The translations under genes were made by a program, and so were the position numbers. Below are positions 27,321 through 51,275 of a stretch of 52,461 nucleotides of DNA, piece by piece. How positions within the stretch are numbered: position 1 is the first letter of the stretch; every line of letters begins with the position of its first letter. Source of the stretch: Peptostreptococcaceae bacterium (lineage in GTDB: Bacteria; Bacillota; Clostridia; Peptostreptococcales; Filifactoraceae); the NCBI GenBank assembly GCA_030532905.1, contig JAUNKE010000005.1:1-52461 (forward strand). Reading direction: 5' to 3'. The notes beneath the pieces are model-generated. The model saw only the letters and a program-made list of their open reading frames with translations, was not told the DNA's origin and ran no database searches.

Positions 27321-27347
27321 AAAAAAGACGGAGAGTCCGTCTTTTTT
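27321..27347. terminator. strong bidirectional terminator downstream of the feo operon
   Basis: AAAAAAGACGGA (27321-27332), loop GAG, TCCGTCTTTTTT (27336-27347): a 12-bp perfect stem with T runs on both strands. Between it and the Cys-rich gene lie further small hairpins (AAATGC/GCATTT at 27388-27403) and no gene. Confidence 0.85.
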
Positions 27348-27461: not shown

Positions 27462-27611
27462 TTACTTGTTGGCTTTGTCTTCTTCGGGGTTGACTCCACA
27501 ACCGCAATTACAACTGCCTCAAGTTTTTCCCTGTTTCTTATCCTTAACCATCATATAGATTGCGCCTGCAACAAGGAGCAAGACAAGCAATCCGACAACT
27601 GCTGTTCCCAT
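27462..27611 (-). CDS. FeoB-associated Cys-rich membrane protein with in-frame UGA (candidate selenoprotein)
   Basis: A 49-codon gene, 22 bases after feoB. Residues 1-22 form one membrane helix (MGTAVVGLLVLLLVAGAIYM), then a basic segment KDKKQGKT. Next is TGA at codon 31 (27519-27521), followed in the same frame by GSCNCGCGVNPEEDKANK and a TAA stop. Length, helix, basic stretch and Cys cluster match the FeoB-associated Cys-rich family (PF12669 type), where a Cys usually opens the cluster. UGA at this place gives U-G-S-C, the U-x-x-C motif common in selenoproteins. A hairpin with a SECIS-like loop starts 16 nt after the UGA. Other genes in the window end at TGA (for example 2241-2243), so it is not reassigned generally. 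The alternative is a nonsense mutation leaving a 30-residue anchor. The family is thought to support ferrous iron uptake. Confidence 0.7.
27485..27507 (-). promoter_or_regulatory. candidate bacterial SECIS hairpin
   Basis: On the minus strand GGTTG (27499-27503) pairs with CAACC (27488-27492) around the 6-nt loop TGGAGT. Beyond a C-C mismatch three further pairs can form. The loop lies about 21 nt after the UGA and has G among its first two bases, in line with the described bacterial SECIS features. Confidence 0.5.
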
Positions 27612-27632: not shown

Positions 27633-29762
27633 TTACTGTTTATGATTATCAATTTTCGGCTCCGGTCGGAACAACAAATAGAGCATCACGACGAGCAATG
27701 CCACCGCGATAATCGTCCAAATTCCGAAACCGCCGCCTGCAAACAACATTCCCAATTGGTAGAAAATCAATGCCAACACATAAGCCAATACGGTTTGGAA
27801 AACAAGCGCAATGCCTGTCCATTTCACATTTCCCATCTCTCGCTTGATGGCTCCGATTGCTGCAAAACATGGCGCACAAATCAAGTTGAAAATCAAGAAC
27901 GAATACGCGCTGAGCTGAGTATAATCCTGAGCCACCAGACTCCAAATTCCCTCTCCGCTTTCGCCGACCTGATCTTCCGCCACACGATACAAAATACCGA
28001 AAGTCGATACGACATTCTCTTTCGCTACCAATCCGTTGATTGCCGCAACAGCCGCTTTCCAGTTACCCCAACCGAGCGGAATAAACAACGGTGCAAAAAT
28101 ATTACCAATGGATGCCAAAATCGATTCTTCGACATCCTCAATCATTTGGAATCCCCAGTTCAGATTACTCATGACCCAAACTACGATGGACGCCAACAAA
28201 ATGATGGTTCCCGCTTTTTTCACGAAAGATTTCGCGCGATCCCACATGTGAATCAAAACACCTTTCAGACTCGGCACATGGTAAGGCGGCAACTCCATGA
28301 TAAACGGCGCCGGATCTCCCGCAAAAGCCTTCATCTTCTTGAGCATAATACCCGATACGATAATCGTACCCATACCGACAAGATATGCCGAATATCCAAT
28401 CAGCGCCGACTCGTTGAACAAAGCACCCGCAATCAATGCAATAATCGGCAACTTTGCGGAACAAGGCACGAAAGAAGTCGTCATAATCGTAATCTTACGG
28501 TCACGCTCATTCTCAATCGTTCGCGACGCCATAATCCCCGGAACGGAACATCCCGTACCGATAAGCATCGGGATAAAAGATTTTCCCGACAAACCGAACT
28601 TTCTAAAGATACGGTCCATCACGAAAGCAACCCGCGCCATATAGCCGGTATCTTCCAAAAGCGCAAGCATAAAGAACAATACCATCATCTGCGGTAAGAA
28701 ACCGAGCACCGCACCGACCCCGGCAACGATACCGTCCAAAATGAGGGACGATAGCCAATCGGCAACCTGCATACTCTCAAGCAACCCGCCCAATTTTTCC
28801 GGCACGATTTCGCCAAAGAGAACATCATTCACCCAATCCGTTCCCCAAGTACCGACCGTCGCAATCGACACATAATATACCAGAAACATTACGAAAGCGA
28901 AAATCGGCAAACCAAGCACACGATTTGTCACGATACGGTCGATTTTATCCGAAACCGTATCACGATGCTTGCTCAACTTTTTCACCGAGCCTGCAATGAC
29001 CTTGTTGATAAACTCATATCGTTGAAAAGTGATGATACTTTCCATATCATCTTCCATCTGCTCTTCAATCTCTTTACGAATCTCTTCAAACTTCGTACGC
29101 TGATTCGGTAACAGTGTCAACGATTCAAAAGCCTTCTCGTCATTCTCCAGAATTTTGATGGCATACCAACGCTGATTCTTCGGCGTTACCTGCGATTGAA
29201 TCTCCTGCTCCACAAGCTTGATGGAATCTTCAATCTCATCTTCAAAACGCACCACATCATCCGGTGCCTGATTCTTCTGTGCCAATTCGATTGCCTTTTC
29301 CGCAACCTCCTTCGCACCCTTCCCTTTGAGTGCGGTCGTTTCAATCACCGGACAGCCCAGCATCTTACTCAGCTTCTCCTTGTCAATCGTATCGCCCGAC
29401 TTCTCCAAAAGATCCATCATATTCAGCGCGATGACCGTCGGTATTCCCATCTCCAAAAATTGTGTTGTTAAGTACAAATTTCGCTCAATATTGGTACTGT
29501 CCACAATATTGATGATGGCATCCGGTTTTTCATTCATGATAAAATTACGCGCAACCACCTCTTCCAAAGTATAAGGTGAAAGCGAATAAATTCCCGGCAA
29601 ATCCACAATCAAAATATCGCGATGCCCCTTGAGCTTTCCTTCTTTCTTCTCGACAGTTACCCCCGGCCAGTTACCGACATATTGCGAGCTGCCTGTCAAT
29701 TCATTAAACATCGTGGTCTTACCACTGTTCGGGTTTCCTGCCAATGCAATTCTAATTCCCAT
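27633..29762 (-). CDS. feoB: ferrous iron transporter FeoB
   Basis: A 709-residue protein of full length. The N-terminal G domain has GNPNSGKTT (residues 8-16), the Thr-containing GNWPGVTVEKKEG, DLPGIYSLSP and NMMD; a helical GDI-like region follows. The membrane part carries the Gate-like segments (GTGCSVPGIMASR, PCSAKLPIIAL) with the conserved Cys residues. It moves Fe2+ into the cell with the G domain controlling transport. The start overlaps the feoA stop as TAATG. The next gene is the Cys-rich partner, so the order is feoA, feoA, feoB, Cys-rich protein. Expression should fall when iron is plentiful, given the DtxR-type box upstream. Confidence 0.96.
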   Translation of the reverse strand: MGIRIALAGNPNSGKTTMFNELTGSSQYVGNWPGVTVEKKEGKLKGHRDILIVDLPGIYSLSPYTLEEVVARNFIMNEKPDAIINIVDSTNIERNLYLTTQFLEMGIPTVIALNMMDLLEKSGDTIDKEKLSKMLGCPVIETTALKGKGAKEVAEKAIELAQKNQAPDDVVRFEDEIEDSIKLVEQEIQSQVTPKNQRWYAIKILENDEKAFESLTLLPNQRTKFEEIRKEIEEQMEDDMESIITFQRYEFINKVIAGSVKKLSKHRDTVSDKIDRIVTNRVLGLPIFAFVMFLVYYVSIATVGTWGTDWVNDVLFGEIVPEKLGGLLESMQVADWLSSLILDGIVAGVGAVLGFLPQMMVLFFMLALLEDTGYMARVAFVMDRIFRKFGLSGKSFIPMLIGTGCSVPGIMASRTIENERDRKITIMTTSFVPCSAKLPIIALIAGALFNESALIGYSAYLVGMGTIIVSGIMLKKMKAFAGDPAPFIMELPPYHVPSLKGVLIHMWDRAKSFVKKAGTIILLASIVVWVMSNLNWGFQMIEDVEESILASIGNIFAPLFIPLGWGNWKAAVAAINGLVAKENVVSTFGILYRVAEDQVGESGEGIWSLVAQDYTQLSAYSFLIFNLICAPCFAAIGAIKREMGNVKWTGIALVFQTVLAYVLALIFYQLGMLFAGGGFGIWTIIAVALLVVMLYLLFRPEPKIDNHKQ

Positions 29763-29998
29763 TAATTCCCTCCGATTATTTCAACCTCAACCATTTCCGC
29801 ATCCGCTTTTCGCAAGCTCAGCTCAAAACTTCTTACCTTGACTTCAATCGGGTCACCCAACGGCGCAACCTTGCGCACAAAAATCTCAACCCCTTTGGTA
29901 ATCCCCATGTCCATAATCCGTCTCTTGATTGCCCCTTCACCATGAAGCTTGACAACCTTCACCGTCATACCCGGTTTGATTTTGTTTAATCTCTCCAT
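29762..29998 (-). CDS. feoA: FeoA-type SH3-like protein, second of two
   Basis: A 78-residue SH3-like protein with the typical LNKIKPGMTVKVVKLHGEGAI start, RRIMDMGITKGVEI and a final beta strand (VEVEIIG). FeoA proteins bind FeoB and tune transport. ATG at 29998 follows GGGAGGAG; the open frame upstream overlaps the other feoA. Its stop overlaps the feoB start (TAATG), which couples the two. The two FeoA proteins differ strongly and are not a recent duplication. Confidence 0.9.
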   Translation of the reverse strand: MERLNKIKPGMTVKVVKLHGEGAIKRRIMDMGITKGVEIFVRKVAPLGDPIEVKVRSFELSLRKADAEMVEVEIIGGN

Positions 29999-30008
29999 TA
30001 CTCCTCCC

Positions 30009-30221
30009 TTATACCATAATTCGGTTAGCCATTTTTTTATCCAGCGCAACGCGTGCCCCCTTGATGTCAACGATAACATTTCCCTCAAGCTCCGACACGA
30101 CCGACACACTCTCTCCAACAACAAAACCAAGATTGCCCAGATGCTTTTGCACATCATCCTTGCCGTTTATCTTGACAATTTTGCCAACCTCGCCCACCTT
30201 CAAAAAACATAGTGGCATCAT
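30009..30221 (-). CDS. feoA: FeoA-type SH3-like protein, first of two
   Basis: A 70-residue FeoA-like protein (VGEVGKIVKINGKDDVQKHLGNLGF, then GESVSVVSELEGNVIVDIKGARVALDK). It is the first gene of the feo operon, 201 nt after the DtxR-type box. Tandem ATG codons lie at 30221 and 30218; GGAGGAAGT suits either. The gene downstream starts 10 bases after its stop. Two FeoA domains before FeoB are common in Clostridia. Confidence 0.88.
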   Translation of the reverse strand: MMPLCFLKVGEVGKIVKINGKDDVQKHLGNLGFVVGESVSVVSELEGNVIVDIKGARVALDKKMANRIMV

Positions 30222-30887: not shown

Positions 30888-31796
30888 CTATCTCAATTCC
30901 AAAGTATTGGTGCTTGCATTATAACGATAAGGCATTTCCAATCCGTCAAGCAAATCGTTCAACGAAACGAACAACTCGCCATTTACACCGACAGGTATCA
31001 TACGAGTTTGCTCTGTCGATTCCGCTTTGCCTACCGTTTTTTGATATTCCTTAACACCTTCTGTGAAAACAGCAACCACATGCTTGTTGGTATCAATATT
31101 TTTGATAGTTACCTTCGCAATGCCGTATTTTGGAGACTCAGCAGAATAAATATGGCCGAAAGCATCTCCAAATTGCGCTACATCCACATACATAATCGAT
31201 CCGTCACCGGAAGGAATGGCACGAAGTGTAATCTTTTGCTTTTCTTCCCATTTCTTCGCGCCTGAACGCTCGATAAATACATCAATCAACTTCGTATCAT
31301 TTTCCGTATATGGTCGGTTGATTTTCGTGTTTTTATCCGATTGATTCGTCATCTGAACCGCATCTTTGTCCGCAACAAAATATTCATCCCCTTTAAGCTC
31401 AATATTATAGCCCAAGGTTTCTACCAAAAATCTTGCCGGTACATAAGTTCTACCTTCAATTAAAATGGTCTTATGATTTGAAGTTTTATTCGACTTGGAG
31501 CCGTTCTCCTCGACAATTGCCCGCTTAGTATCCACAACAAAAGCCACCGATTTTGCAGATGTTTTATCCGTCATACGAATCGCTTTCGTGTTTTTCGCAT
31601 AATCCAAACCAAATCCCATCGCATCCGCAAAAGAGCGTACCTCCATCAAAGAAATGCCGTTCTTCACAACCACATTTACTTCACGAGATTGCCCGTCGAA
31701 ATGCAACACTTTTGAATCTTTGGATGTATGTGCAAACCCCGCTTGCATCGAAAGCGCAACTGCAAGAGCACCCGCCACCAATTTTTTCAATTTCAT
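30888..31796 (-). CDS. secreted stalk-domain (copper amine oxidase N-like) protein, 302 residues
   Basis: An exported protein with a signal peptide ending near residue 23 (GFAHT). Two copper-amine-oxidase N-terminal-like (PF07833) units follow: VVKNGISLMEVRSFADAMGFGLD near 44-67 and ILIEGRTYVPARFLVETLGYNIE near 110-133. The C-terminal third holds another similar half unit (VNGELFVSLNDLLDGLEMPYRYN). No copper-oxidase catalytic domain is present; in Bacillota this unit is a surface or wall-facing module. GAGGAGG precedes the ATG. It has its own promoter candidate (TTGATA-N18-TATAGT) and terminator. Confidence 0.82.
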   Translation of the reverse strand: MKLKKLVAGALAVALSMQAGFAHTSKDSKVLHFDGQSREVNVVVKNGISLMEVRSFADAMGFGLDYAKNTKAIRMTDKTSAKSVAFVVDTKRAIVEENGSKSNKTSNHKTILIEGRTYVPARFLVETLGYNIELKGDEYFVADKDAVQMTNQSDKNTKINRPYTENDTKLIDVFIERSGAKKWEEKQKITLRAIPSGDGSIMYVDVAQFGDAFGHIYSAESPKYGIAKVTIKNIDTNKHVVAVFTEGVKEYQKTVGKAESTEQTRMIPVGVNGELFVSLNDLLDGLEMPYRYNASTNTLELR

Positions 31797-31871
31797 ACTA
31801 CTACCTCCTCAATTTGATTGTACTCCTATACTATACCACATTTTTCCTTGATTTATCAAATATTTTTACAA

Positions 31872-31894
31872 AACCCTGACGAAACAGCAGGGTT
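31872..31894 (-). terminator. terminator of the stalk-domain gene at 31903
   Basis: AACCCTG (31872-31878) and CAGGGTT (31888-31894) form a 7-bp stem, followed on the minus strand by TTGTAAAAAT, a weak tail. Confidence 0.6.
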
Positions 31895-31902
31895 GTAATA
31901 AG

Positions 31903-32703
31903 TTATTTGCTTGCATCAAAATACAATGTCATGCTGCGTTCATCCGCTCCATTATTCACACGATAATAGAAAGTCAACGCCCCTTTCAGATTTCTGTCAT
32001 ACGCACCGTCATACGAAATATCGCCGGTAATGGAAGATAATCCGATGTTGCTGGTGTACGGAACAAGCGAAGAACTGAATTTCGCCGTATAATCTATAGG
32101 TGCATCATAGACTTTGGAGCCTACCGTCAACTTGGTTTTTTCCGGAATCAAATTAAAGGAATTATCCTTGTTGTTATTCGTAATCGTTACATTAAATACC
32201 GCTTTTCCATTTCCGGATTCGGTAACATCATCGACACGAATTTTGAGACCGAAAGTATCCTCCGAGCCGACCGGTAATTTCTTATACGCACTGACATTTG
32301 TATATTGTTTTTCCATTTCGGTCAAACGATTTTGCAAACGCGCATTTTCTTTTTTTATCAACTCCAGCTCTCTCAAGGCACTTTCGAGTTTTTGTTTCTC
32401 CGTTTGTGTAATCGGCTCTTGCTTACTTGGTGCAGATCCGCCACCTGCAATACGAATCGTACCCTGACTGTAATCCACCTTCGCACCCAGAGTCTCCGAA
32501 ATAAAACGAAGCGGTACATAGGTTGTTCCGTTCTTGCTCATTACCAAATAGTTGTTCGGTAGCGTAATCTTATTCTCATTGATAACAAAGTTGTAGTTCA
32601 CTTTGGATACACCGCCGACCGCCATCGTTGCCGCTCCCGCGATTCCCGTTGCAATCGTAAGTGCCGCCATCGTCGTTGCGATAAATTTAGAATATCTTTT
32701 CAT
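31903..32703 (-). CDS. secreted stalk-domain protein with coiled coil, 266 residues
   Basis: An exported protein. A signal peptide (to about residue 24) leads into one PF07833-like unit (SKNGTTYVPLRFISETLGAKVDY, about 58-80), then a predicted coiled coil (LESALRELELIKKENARLQN and following, about 105-135), then a beta-rich C-terminal domain of about 120 residues with no family I recognise. The layout, unit plus coiled coil plus C domain, is repeated in the gene at 38793. Its promoter region has an exact WalR-type box, so it may be part of a cell-wall regulon. Confidence 0.8.
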   Translation of the reverse strand: MKRYSKFIATTMAALTIATGIAGAATMAVGGVSKVNYNFVINENKITLPNNYLVMSKNGTTYVPLRFISETLGAKVDYSQGTIRIAGGGSAPSKQEPITQTEKQKLESALRELELIKKENARLQNRLTEMEKQYTNVSAYKKLPVGSEDTFGLKIRVDDVTESGNGKAVFNVTITNNNKDNSFNLIPEKTKLTVGSKVYDAPIDYTAKFSSSLVPYTSNIGLSSITGDISYDGAYDRNLKGALTFYYRVNNGADERSMTLYFDASK

Positions 32704-32735
32704 TTTTTCTCCTCCTAACGATATTACTTATCTTC

Positions 32736-32796
32736 ATTATATTGGACTGTTTGTGATTTGTATAGTCCAAGCAGCGATTTGTTATCTTATTGTAAT
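32736..32796 (-). promoter_or_regulatory. promoter of the 31903 gene with exact WalR box and inverted repeat
   Basis: TATAAT on the minus strand (32736-32741) has no good -35 sequence. A 7-bp inverted repeat, TTGGACT (32742-32748) and AGTCCAA (32764-32770), flanks the -35 region. TGTTAT-CTTAT-TGTAAT at 32780-32796 matches TGTWAH-N5-TGTWAH exactly on the plus strand. Confidence 0.55.
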
Positions 32797-32940
32797 AATC
32801 GTCTAAGGAATTTTCGTATAGATTTATAAAATCTATAAAGCAGTGCGCCGGTATATTTCTCTCAATTTGACTTTCCTTCTAATTATAATTTTTGCATTTT
32901 GTTGTTATAATCCAACAACCATATCTTTTAAGAGGCATCA

Positions 32941-32969
32941 AAAAAGGAAGCCTTGCGACTTCCTTTTTA
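32941..32969 (-). terminator. terminator of the large stalk-domain gene at 32985
   Basis: AAAAAGGAAG (32942-32951) and CTTCCTTTTT (32960-32969) form a perfect stem; the minus-strand tail is TTTTTT. Confidence 0.85.
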
Positions 32970-32984
32970 ATCATCCAGTTTTAA

Positions 32985-35117
32985 TTATTTAGAAACTGTA
33001 GCTGTCTTAGCAGCAGCATCCCAGTCGATTTGTACACCGAATGCAGTTGCAAGAGATCTAAGCTCGATGAAAGTAGTTCCGTTAACTAGCTCTGCTTTAG
33101 CAGCAAGTTTAACAGGAGTACCGTTAATGTGCATAGTTTCTGCTCCGATTACTACAGCAGCAACCTTAGTTGAGTCTGTGAATGTAGCAGTCTTAGTTTG
33201 TCCGTTCCACTGAACATGTAGTCCTAGTGACTCAGCAAGTGCTCTTACAGGAAGCATAGTTCTACCATTCTTCACATAAGGTGCAGAAGCAGCAGTTTTA
33301 GCTTGTCCGTTTACAGTGTACTGAGTTTGTCCGATTGTGAATACAGTTAGGATTGACTCAAGAGCGTACTCTTTAACAACCTTAATATATTCTGTGTTCA
33401 CTACATTCGCTCCATTAAGAGCCGCATATACTTTGATTACATCATCCGTAGATGAACCGTCTACAAGAACTTTTACTCCGGAAATAGTGATTACCGCAGC
33501 TTCTCCGGAAGATTGCTTAGTTATAGGGAACTCGATTGCAGCAAACTTCTCTTGATCTCCAATTTTCTTATATGATGGATCTCCAAACTTCATTCCGTTT
33601 GTGGCTTCAATTTTTACTGCACTTGTAGCAAACTGAGTGTAGCTTCTTCTTGTGTTGAATCGGATTTGTAGTTTGTCTTGTCTAGTAAGAAGACCAGCTT
33701 TTGCTTCTGTAATTACAATGTTAGCTGTTTCTCTAGCTTCACCTTTTTTCACAGGCATTTCTTCAGATTTGATAGCAAGTTTAGGAGTAATTTTTACAGC
33801 ATCCGCTTTTACTTCCCATCCTCTTTGAGCAGCTGTCAAAGTAGCAACTCCATCTTTTGAAGCAGCAGTTCTAAGCTCAATATCAAACTTAACTTCTTCA
33901 AGATCACGAGCAATTGGAGCTAGACTGAATTCAGCATCCTTAAATACGCCCTCATCATCTCTACCTTCAAAGAAAGCTGTATTTGGCTTTGTAGCCTTTT
34001 CTGTATTATTTTTGAAAGTTACATCTGCACCATCAGCAGTAAAGTCGATAGGTCTGTCAGAAATTGAACCTTTTGGCCCTTTCAAAGTAACAGTTACCAT
34101 TACTTTTTCTCCACCCCATACAGATGGTATTTCTCTTTTACCTTTTTCAACAATTGTCATTGTAACTTTGTAGTCAACAATCTTACCGATTACTGCACTA
34201 GCAGATGCTACATTGATGTCCGGTTCTCCCGCTTTTTTGTCAAAAATTCTAACATTTACTCTTACTGATCCTTCAGATGCATGTCTTCCCATTCTATCCA
34301 CTACAGGAAGCACTAGAACAGATTTACTTGTAAGCGCAACATCACCAGGTACCACAGTAAGTTTGTTAGCAGCAACTGTTCCTGCTGCCACACCATCAAC
34401 AAACATTTGTGTGATTGGAGCTGGAGCAGCTGCATCAAACTTCACTGCGTCATCATCAATAGTTATTTCCATTTCACGAGTGTATCCTGCTGGTGCTACA
34501 GCTTTCAAAGTCTTTGCAAAATCTTTAATTTCAAATTGAGAAAGCTCGCCACCATCAAAGCTTACCGCTTTTTCCGGGTCTTTAGCAGTTACACTTAATC
34601 CTGCAGTAGTATCTCTAACTACAGCAACTTTCATAGGAGCAAGCGTTCCAACTCCGGTATTGTCCTCATCTGTTAGCTTAAGCATTACATCACCAGTATT
34701 TGGGAAATAAACCGGGATGTTCAATGTAATTGTAGCATCAGCCCCAAGATTTACATCTGGTGCACCACCCAATTTAATAAAAATAAGATTGTCCGCCGGT
34801 TGAGTTGCACCAGTAGCTGCAAGAGTTACATTTGTAAAGCCGTCAATTTTTACTTCAGCTCCACCTAATTGAGCTGTATTAGCAGCTCTAAATGCTGCTC
34901 CGTTATCAATTTCCAGTCTCAATGTTCCTGGATTAATAGTAGAACCTTTTGGCACTTTAAAAGTAACTGTCACATTTTTGCGCTCTCCTGCAACATCATC
35001 TAAACTCGCAGGGATGTCCAGCGTTGTATATACTGCTGTTGCTGCTGCAAATGCTGACATTGGTAGCATTGTAATAATCATCAATGCCGCCATTAAAAGA
35101 GATAATCTCTTCTTCAT
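32985..35117 (-). CDS. large secreted surface protein with C-terminal stalk domain, 710 residues
   Basis: An exported protein. The signal peptide ends near residue 24 (AFA/AA). A long beta-rich body follows with no family I can name, repetitive in style (VKVxLK, EVKFDIELRT). The last 120 residues carry two PF07833-like units (KNGRTMLPVRALAESLGLHV and NGTTFIELRSLATAFGVQID). The composition is rich in Ala, Thr, Val and Lys with almost no Cys. Codon use differs from neighbours (GCA/GCT, AGA and ACA frequent, few GCC/TCC), which suggests very high expression, like an S-layer or major surface protein. AAGGAGG precedes ATG 35117; the longer frame to 35237 covers the promoter. A close paralogue is at 36450. 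Confidence 0.82.
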   Translation of the reverse strand: MKKRLSLLMAALMIITMLPMSAFAAATAVYTTLDIPASLDDVAGERKNVTVTFKVPKGSTINPGTLRLEIDNGAAFRAANTAQLGGAEVKIDGFTNVTLAATGATQPADNLIFIKLGGAPDVNLGADATITLNIPVYFPNTGDVMLKLTDEDNTGVGTLAPMKVAVVRDTTAGLSVTAKDPEKAVSFDGGELSQFEIKDFAKTLKAVAPAGYTREMEITIDDDAVKFDAAAPAPITQMFVDGVAAGTVAANKLTVVPGDVALTSKSVLVLPVVDRMGRHASEGSVRVNVRIFDKKAGEPDINVASASAVIGKIVDYKVTMTIVEKGKREIPSVWGGEKVMVTVTLKGPKGSISDRPIDFTADGADVTFKNNTEKATKPNTAFFEGRDDEGVFKDAEFSLAPIARDLEEVKFDIELRTAASKDGVATLTAAQRGWEVKADAVKITPKLAIKSEEMPVKKGEARETANIVITEAKAGLLTRQDKLQIRFNTRRSYTQFATSAVKIEATNGMKFGDPSYKKIGDQEKFAAIEFPITKQSSGEAAVITISGVKVLVDGSSTDDVIKVYAALNGANVVNTEYIKVVKEYALESILTVFTIGQTQYTVNGQAKTAASAPYVKNGRTMLPVRALAESLGLHVQWNGQTKTATFTDSTKVAAVVIGAETMHINGTPVKLAAKAELVNGTTFIELRSLATAFGVQIDWDAAAKTATVSK

Positions 35118-35208
35118 TTTGTTTTCCTCCTTTTGATATAGAAAAAATAATTTTTCTGAGAGTATGGGCTCTCTTCCCTTTTCAGTAAAATACCGATTTA
35201 CAAATGCC

Positions 35209-35269
35209 ATTATATCAACGGACTGATGGTGTGTCAATCAATATTGGGAATTTGTAACATAACTGTAAT
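35209..35269 (-). promoter_or_regulatory. strong promoter of the 32985 gene with exact WalR box
   Basis: On the minus strand, TTGACA (35232-35237), a 17-bp spacer and TATAAT (35209-35214): a full consensus promoter. TGTAAC-ATAAC-TGTAAT at 35253-35269 (plus strand) matches TGTWAH-N5-TGTWAH exactly and lies just upstream of the -35 box. The remaining 35270-35583 has no gene; it holds another possible minus-strand promoter (TTGACC near 35335) and AT-rich sequence. Confidence 0.7.
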
Positions 35270-50994: not shown

Positions 50995-51275
50995 AAATAT
51001 TTGTCGTAGAGCGAAAGCAAGTAGGGTAAATGAAGCTTTCAGAGAGTCAACGGTTGGTGTAAGTTGGCAGTGGAGTTTATGTGAATGGGTTCGTGAGATT
51101 GTTTGGTGAAGTAAGTAGCCGAGCAGGTGTTCCTCACCTTATAGGGGTAGGGTATGTTAGTACCTGAAGAGAGAATCTTTCAGATATTAACTGCTTTTGC
51201 AGTTATTTTTGTTTCGATTGAATTAGGATGGCACCGCGAGTAATCGTTCCTGAACGGGATGATGCTCGCTTTTTT
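50995..51275 (+). promoter_or_regulatory. T-box riboswitch, tryptophan-specific
   Basis: A leader of about 280 nt. The T-box core AGGATGGCACCGCG (51226-51239) is followed by a terminator, GCGAG ... CTCGC (51236-51269) with a T run. A stem III-like hairpin, AACTGC with GCAGTT (51189-51204), lies before it. In stem I, the segment GTGAATGGGTTCG at 51081-51093 puts TGG (51086-51088) in the specifier position, the Trp codon. Uncharged tRNA-Trp should therefore switch on the transporter behind it. The region 51276-51455 holds only the leader end and the ribosome-binding site. Confidence 0.9.

Follow-up and report, generated by a model that had tools for sequence, protein, structure and literature searches.

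Whether the single UGA that interrupts a small gene downstream of feoB is translated as selenocysteine (Sec) or ends the protein is the question raised by this locus of Peptostreptococcaceae bacterium (GCA_030532905.1, hereafter G000). The window, that is, the whole stretch of 52,461 nucleotides that was analysed, carries the gene within a ferrous iron uptake (feo) gene cluster, and the features of the cluster are collected in the table. An initial annotation had proposed Sec at this codon, and each of the checks named there that was run supported the proposal. Judged from the sequence, UGA31 is very probably read as Sec in a FeoB-associated protein, in which it would open a UxxC motif within a four-ligand cluster.

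Table. Features of the feo region, in window coordinates
Feature	Position	Strand	Basis or remark
FeoB-associated small gene	27462..27611	-	Translation with TGA as U; PF12669, 43.6 bits
In-frame UGA, codon 31; putative Sec, first residue of UxxC	27519..27521	-	
SECIS-like hairpin GGUUG[UGGAGU]CAACC	27488..27503	-	Loop 20 nt after the UGA
feoB, ferrous iron transporter, 709 aa	27633..29762	-	TIGR00437, 603 bits; Pfam FeoB_N, Gate and FeoB_C
feoA, second copy	29762..29998	-	PF04023, 70.6 bits; start MERLNK picked by eye, listed ORF from 30157
feoA, first copy	30009..30221	-	PF04023, 61.5 bits
Probable intrinsic terminator, GACGGACTCTCCGTC then TTTTTT, 3' of the small gene	27321..27341	-	Sequence reading

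The ATG of the small gene lies 21 bases 3' of the feoB stop on the same strand, and the frame runs for 49 codons to a TAA, with the TGA at codon 31 as its sole interruption, as the initial annotation had stated. Translation with TGA as U gives MGTAVVGLLVLLLVAGAIYMMVKDKKQGKT-U-GSCNCGCGVNPEEDKANK, which reads U-G-S-C-N-C-G-C from the TGA onwards, in agreement with the initial annotation. A plus-strand reading of 27462-27611 was rejected because the frame there is unrelated. Ordinary gene callers would likely miss the gene or end its frame at the TGA.

Membership in the FeoB-associated family across the TGA, which had also been claimed, was confirmed with the Pfam model FeoB_associated (PF12669; curated cut-off, 27 bits), which matched the product with 43.6 bits when C was placed at the TGA and with 41.7 bits when X was placed there, while none of the NCBIfam models scored above its own cut-off. 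The N-terminal membrane helix typical of the family was recognized as a hydrophobic stretch and, in a single-sequence AlphaFold prediction, as a helix over residues 3-26 (pLDDT 83-86 over the first 20 residues) followed only by a loose tail. The cluster U31 C34 C36 C38 has the Cys-rich character of the family only if the UGA is Sec, giving three Cys plus Sec; the family usually has four or more Cys, and the relatives of the small protein mostly have four or five.

The part preceding the TGA passes the Pfam cut-off by itself with 30.4 bits, and translation of such ORFs was noted as unproven in a 2022 study of Feo (PMC8749426), both of which would suit a true stop at TGA31, leaving either a decaying gene or a membrane peptide of 30 residues devoid of the Cys cluster. 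Since that part alone reaches only 30.4 bits, the part following the TGA adds about 11 bits of family signal, and its frame is intact to the TAA. Furthermore, the TGA coincides precisely with a conserved Cys column and is found again in a congener, and termination there would remove the entire cluster that defines the family, all of which make a true stop improbable. Chance does not account for the frame, the match to the family or the conservation.

Presence of the Sec machinery had been named as a check on the Sec reading, and selA (581.6 bits), selB (406.1 bits), selD (383.9 bits) and selC, the gene for tRNA-Sec (73.1 bits, UCA anticodon), were all found in the G000 assembly (2.48 Mb, 96% complete, 132 contigs), with selD, selA and selB clustered on one contig (C58, loci L013 and L015). 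The selD gene itself has an in-frame TGA in the motif AAG-U-AGK, with the hairpin loop UGGAU, and GrdB-family genes have UGTC motifs with an in-frame TGA directly 3' of the open frame. There are three such genes, two of full length and one short and PrdB-like (C85/L122, C5/L126 and C104/L130). The TGA-containing selD and GrdB genes, together with the machinery, indicate that decoding of UGA as Sec is in use in this organism. Decoding of TGA31 as another amino acid, either Trp or, by suppression, Cys, is highly improbable; nothing specific speaks for it except that UGA is an uncommon stop in the window (3 of 36 long ORFs), and against it are the long ORFs that do end in UGA, the Cys found at the aligned residue in relatives and the completeness of the Sec system.

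The exchange between Cys and UGA that had been proposed as a further check was seen in a comparison of 11 genomes of the taxonomic family, three belonging to the genus and eight to four other genera. A TGA was present inside the PF12669 match in all three genomes of the genus and inside no match in the other four genera. Codon 31 is likewise TGA in the small gene of one congener, G004 (KSGKT-U-GGGCGCGC). The other genera have Cys in this column, for example KNGKG-C-AGCSGGCSSC. Within the genus, which is represented by three genomes only, codon 31 is Cys in one, G005 (loci L018 and L067), where it reads TGT and codon 40 is TGA. FeoB of G004 and that of G005 are 90% identical, and FeoB of G000 is 80-81% identical to either; 45-47% of fourfold sites are identical between G000 and its congeners (47% for G004). 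These values indicate that the TGA shared by G000 and G004 is old, and the FeoB identities suggest that UGA31 is most simply ancestral in the genus, with a change from Sec to Cys in G005. Since six of the eight genomes from the other genera also have a tRNA-Sec above the cut-off, the Cys form is found in relatives that decode Sec as well.

The comparison with G004 also bears on the possibility that TGA31 is in truth a TGC or TGT that was misread in sequencing or assembly, a possibility for which the fragmentation of the G000 assembly into 132 contigs might speak. The same codon is TGA in G004, which was assembled separately, so such an error is very unlikely, to the point of being hardly credible.

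Beyond the genus, profile searches covering 297 and 394 genomes from the order identified no internal TGA among the matches listed, with the exception of G359, which was rejected as a further Sec form because its TGA lies 3' of the cluster and is the ordinary end of the gene. A DNA pattern for KxKKxGxxU[G/A] was searched across 391 genomes from the class and 394 from the order; among the matches that have both a membrane helix and a Cys cluster, only G000 and G004 were returned. Among FeoB relatives picked by name, the small gene was of the Cys type or none was recognized, and no Sec form was found.

In G005, codon 40 aligns without gaps to the last cluster Cys codon of G000 and G004, and the putative chalcogen ligands are U31 C34 C36 C38 in G000, U31 C35 C37 C39 in G004 and C31 C34 C38 U40 in G005. 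A stop at codon 40 would leave G005 with three ligands, compared with the four or five Cys of most relatives, and an in-frame tail of 16 codons lies 3' of TGA40. The form ending at codon 40 scored higher against the Pfam model than the longer form (54.7 versus 49.7 bits), which speaks against the Sec reading, and no hairpin was found at the standard spacing after TGA40. Codon 40 of G005 may thus encode a Sec that occupies another ligand position, or it may mark a truncated protein. It is possible, if rather doubtful, that Sec shifted between the ligand positions of the cluster within the genus, standing at codon 31 in two species and at codon 40 in the third, with four chalcogens kept in every case. 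If so, Sec would serve as a metal or redox ligand that can be interchanged, not as a fixed catalytic residue, and the uptake of ferrous iron would hinge on the supply of selenium.

The hairpin described in the initial annotation was also recovered downstream of UGA31, with a 5-bp stem starting at nucleotide 16 after the UGA and a 6-nt loop with G at loop position 2, and at position 3 as well. The published bacterial SECIS (bSECIS) model has a loop of 3-9 nt, a stem of 4-16 bp, G in the first two loop positions, a spacing of 16-37 nt and a minimum free energy of at most -7.5 kcal/mol (PMC13188914). The G000 hairpin agrees with this model, with a spacing of 20 and a 45-nt fold of -9.5 kcal/mol, and it resembles the two hairpins of the same genome that served as positive controls, those of selD (GCCAA[UGGAU]UUGGC, spacing 19) and grdB (CGUUG[CGGUG]CAACG, spacing 17). 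The corresponding hairpin of G004, GCUGC[GGAU]GCAGC, has a spacing of 18 and a fold of -17.4 kcal/mol that beats 200 of 200 shuffles. GG in the loop is common to all four, the small-gene hairpins of G000 and G004 and those of selD and grdB.

Dinucleotide shuffling produced a hairpin as good as that of G000 in 4.9% of cases and synonymous recoding in 8%, and 32 of 200 shuffles folded equally well. Of 36 ordinary stops in the window, 16 were followed by a hairpin of at least 5 bp under the same spacing and loop rules. When the three species are aligned without gaps, 83% of the pairs of the helix are retained and two changes are two-sided; no slid register retains as many. Three sequences are too small a set for this to be significant, however, and 116 of 500 shuffles did equally well. 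Because the hairpin rule is of low specificity, the main evidence for Sec is taken to be the machinery, the frame, the match to the family and the Cys/UGA exchange, and the hairpin is regarded as additional support that is consistent with them.

If UGA31 is read as Sec, SelB and Sec-tRNA would insert Sec at this codon when selenium is present, and the product would be a protein with a single membrane helix at about residues 3-26. The basic stretch KDKK after the helix and the positive-inside rule suggest that the cluster U31xxC34xC36xC38 lies on the cytoplasmic side, beside FeoB. There, the four chalcogen ligands might receive, sense or pass on incoming Fe2+, or might hold an Fe-S centre, and Sec would be a ligand of lower pKa that is easily re-reduced; that the low pKa of this putative Sec suits redox chemistry or iron handling, as had been suggested earlier, is plausible. 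In the absence of selenium, translation would end with residue 30, yielding a helix that lacks the cluster. A role in iron handling is inferred from the operon and the family, by analogy with the Cys motif of FeoC.

FeoC is, like the protein described here, a small Feo accessory protein with a four-Cys motif, which in E. coli forms a [4Fe-4S] cluster and whose Cys are needed for full function (PMC8749426). It differs in that it is described as cytoplasmic and has no Sec, and its homology to PF12669 proteins was considered unclear in the 2022 study (PMC8749426). Known FeoB-associated Cys-rich proteins have the same position after feoB, one helix, a basic stretch and about four C-terminal Cys (PMC8749426), and differ from the G000 protein in that its first cluster Cys is replaced by UGA, putatively Sec. 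GrdB and SelD of G000 share with the small gene an in-frame UGA and the same hairpin geometry with the loop GG, but are soluble enzymes of unrelated families. SaoB, SaoC and SaoP, a putative mercuric transport protein and the SO_0444 Cu/Zn efflux protein are predicted Sec-containing transport proteins in which Sec is likewise proposed as a metal ligand or redox group (PMC13188914); they belong to other families, mostly concerned with the handling of heavy metals or metalloids and not with ferrous iron uptake.

The statement in the initial annotation that no Sec member of this family was known agrees with the searchable literature. A full-text search for selenoproteins among FeoB-associated proteins returned no paper and a broader search nothing relevant, with subscription papers and current database annotation outside their scope. 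The 2026 review that catalogues 119 prokaryotic selenoprotein families and subfamilies does not use the term Feo, and its table has no such family (PMC13188914); the term is also absent from both the deep-Sep paper and a 2022 review. On its sequence, the small protein is thus a Sec form of the known family PF12669, previously undescribed in the searchable literature, and no new kind of system. If the Sec reading is true, the Feo system would gain its first described selenoprotein, linking selenium to the uptake of ferrous iron. Moreover, conservation of a recoding codon is meaningful only in an ORF that is translated, and its presence here therefore bears on whether FeoB-associated Cys-rich ORFs yield functional peptides at all (PMC8749426).

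Two feoA genes lie in tandem 5' of feoB (29762-30221, minus strand). At the other end of the cluster, the G+C-rich stem and T run of the probable terminator suggest that the small gene is probably within the feo transcript; this terminator was absent from the list of a consensus terminator scan. A scan of the window that allowed up to three mismatches recovered no canonical Fur box. Elsewhere in the window, a T-box leader (RF00230, 98.6 bits) was identified at 50998-51254 on the plus strand. Three adjacent genes at 30888-35237 on the minus strand encode secreted-looking proteins of 302, 266 and 750 aa, which by eye have in common a segment resembling VPxRxLxExLGxxxxY, comparable to that of copper amine oxidase N-terminal-like domains.
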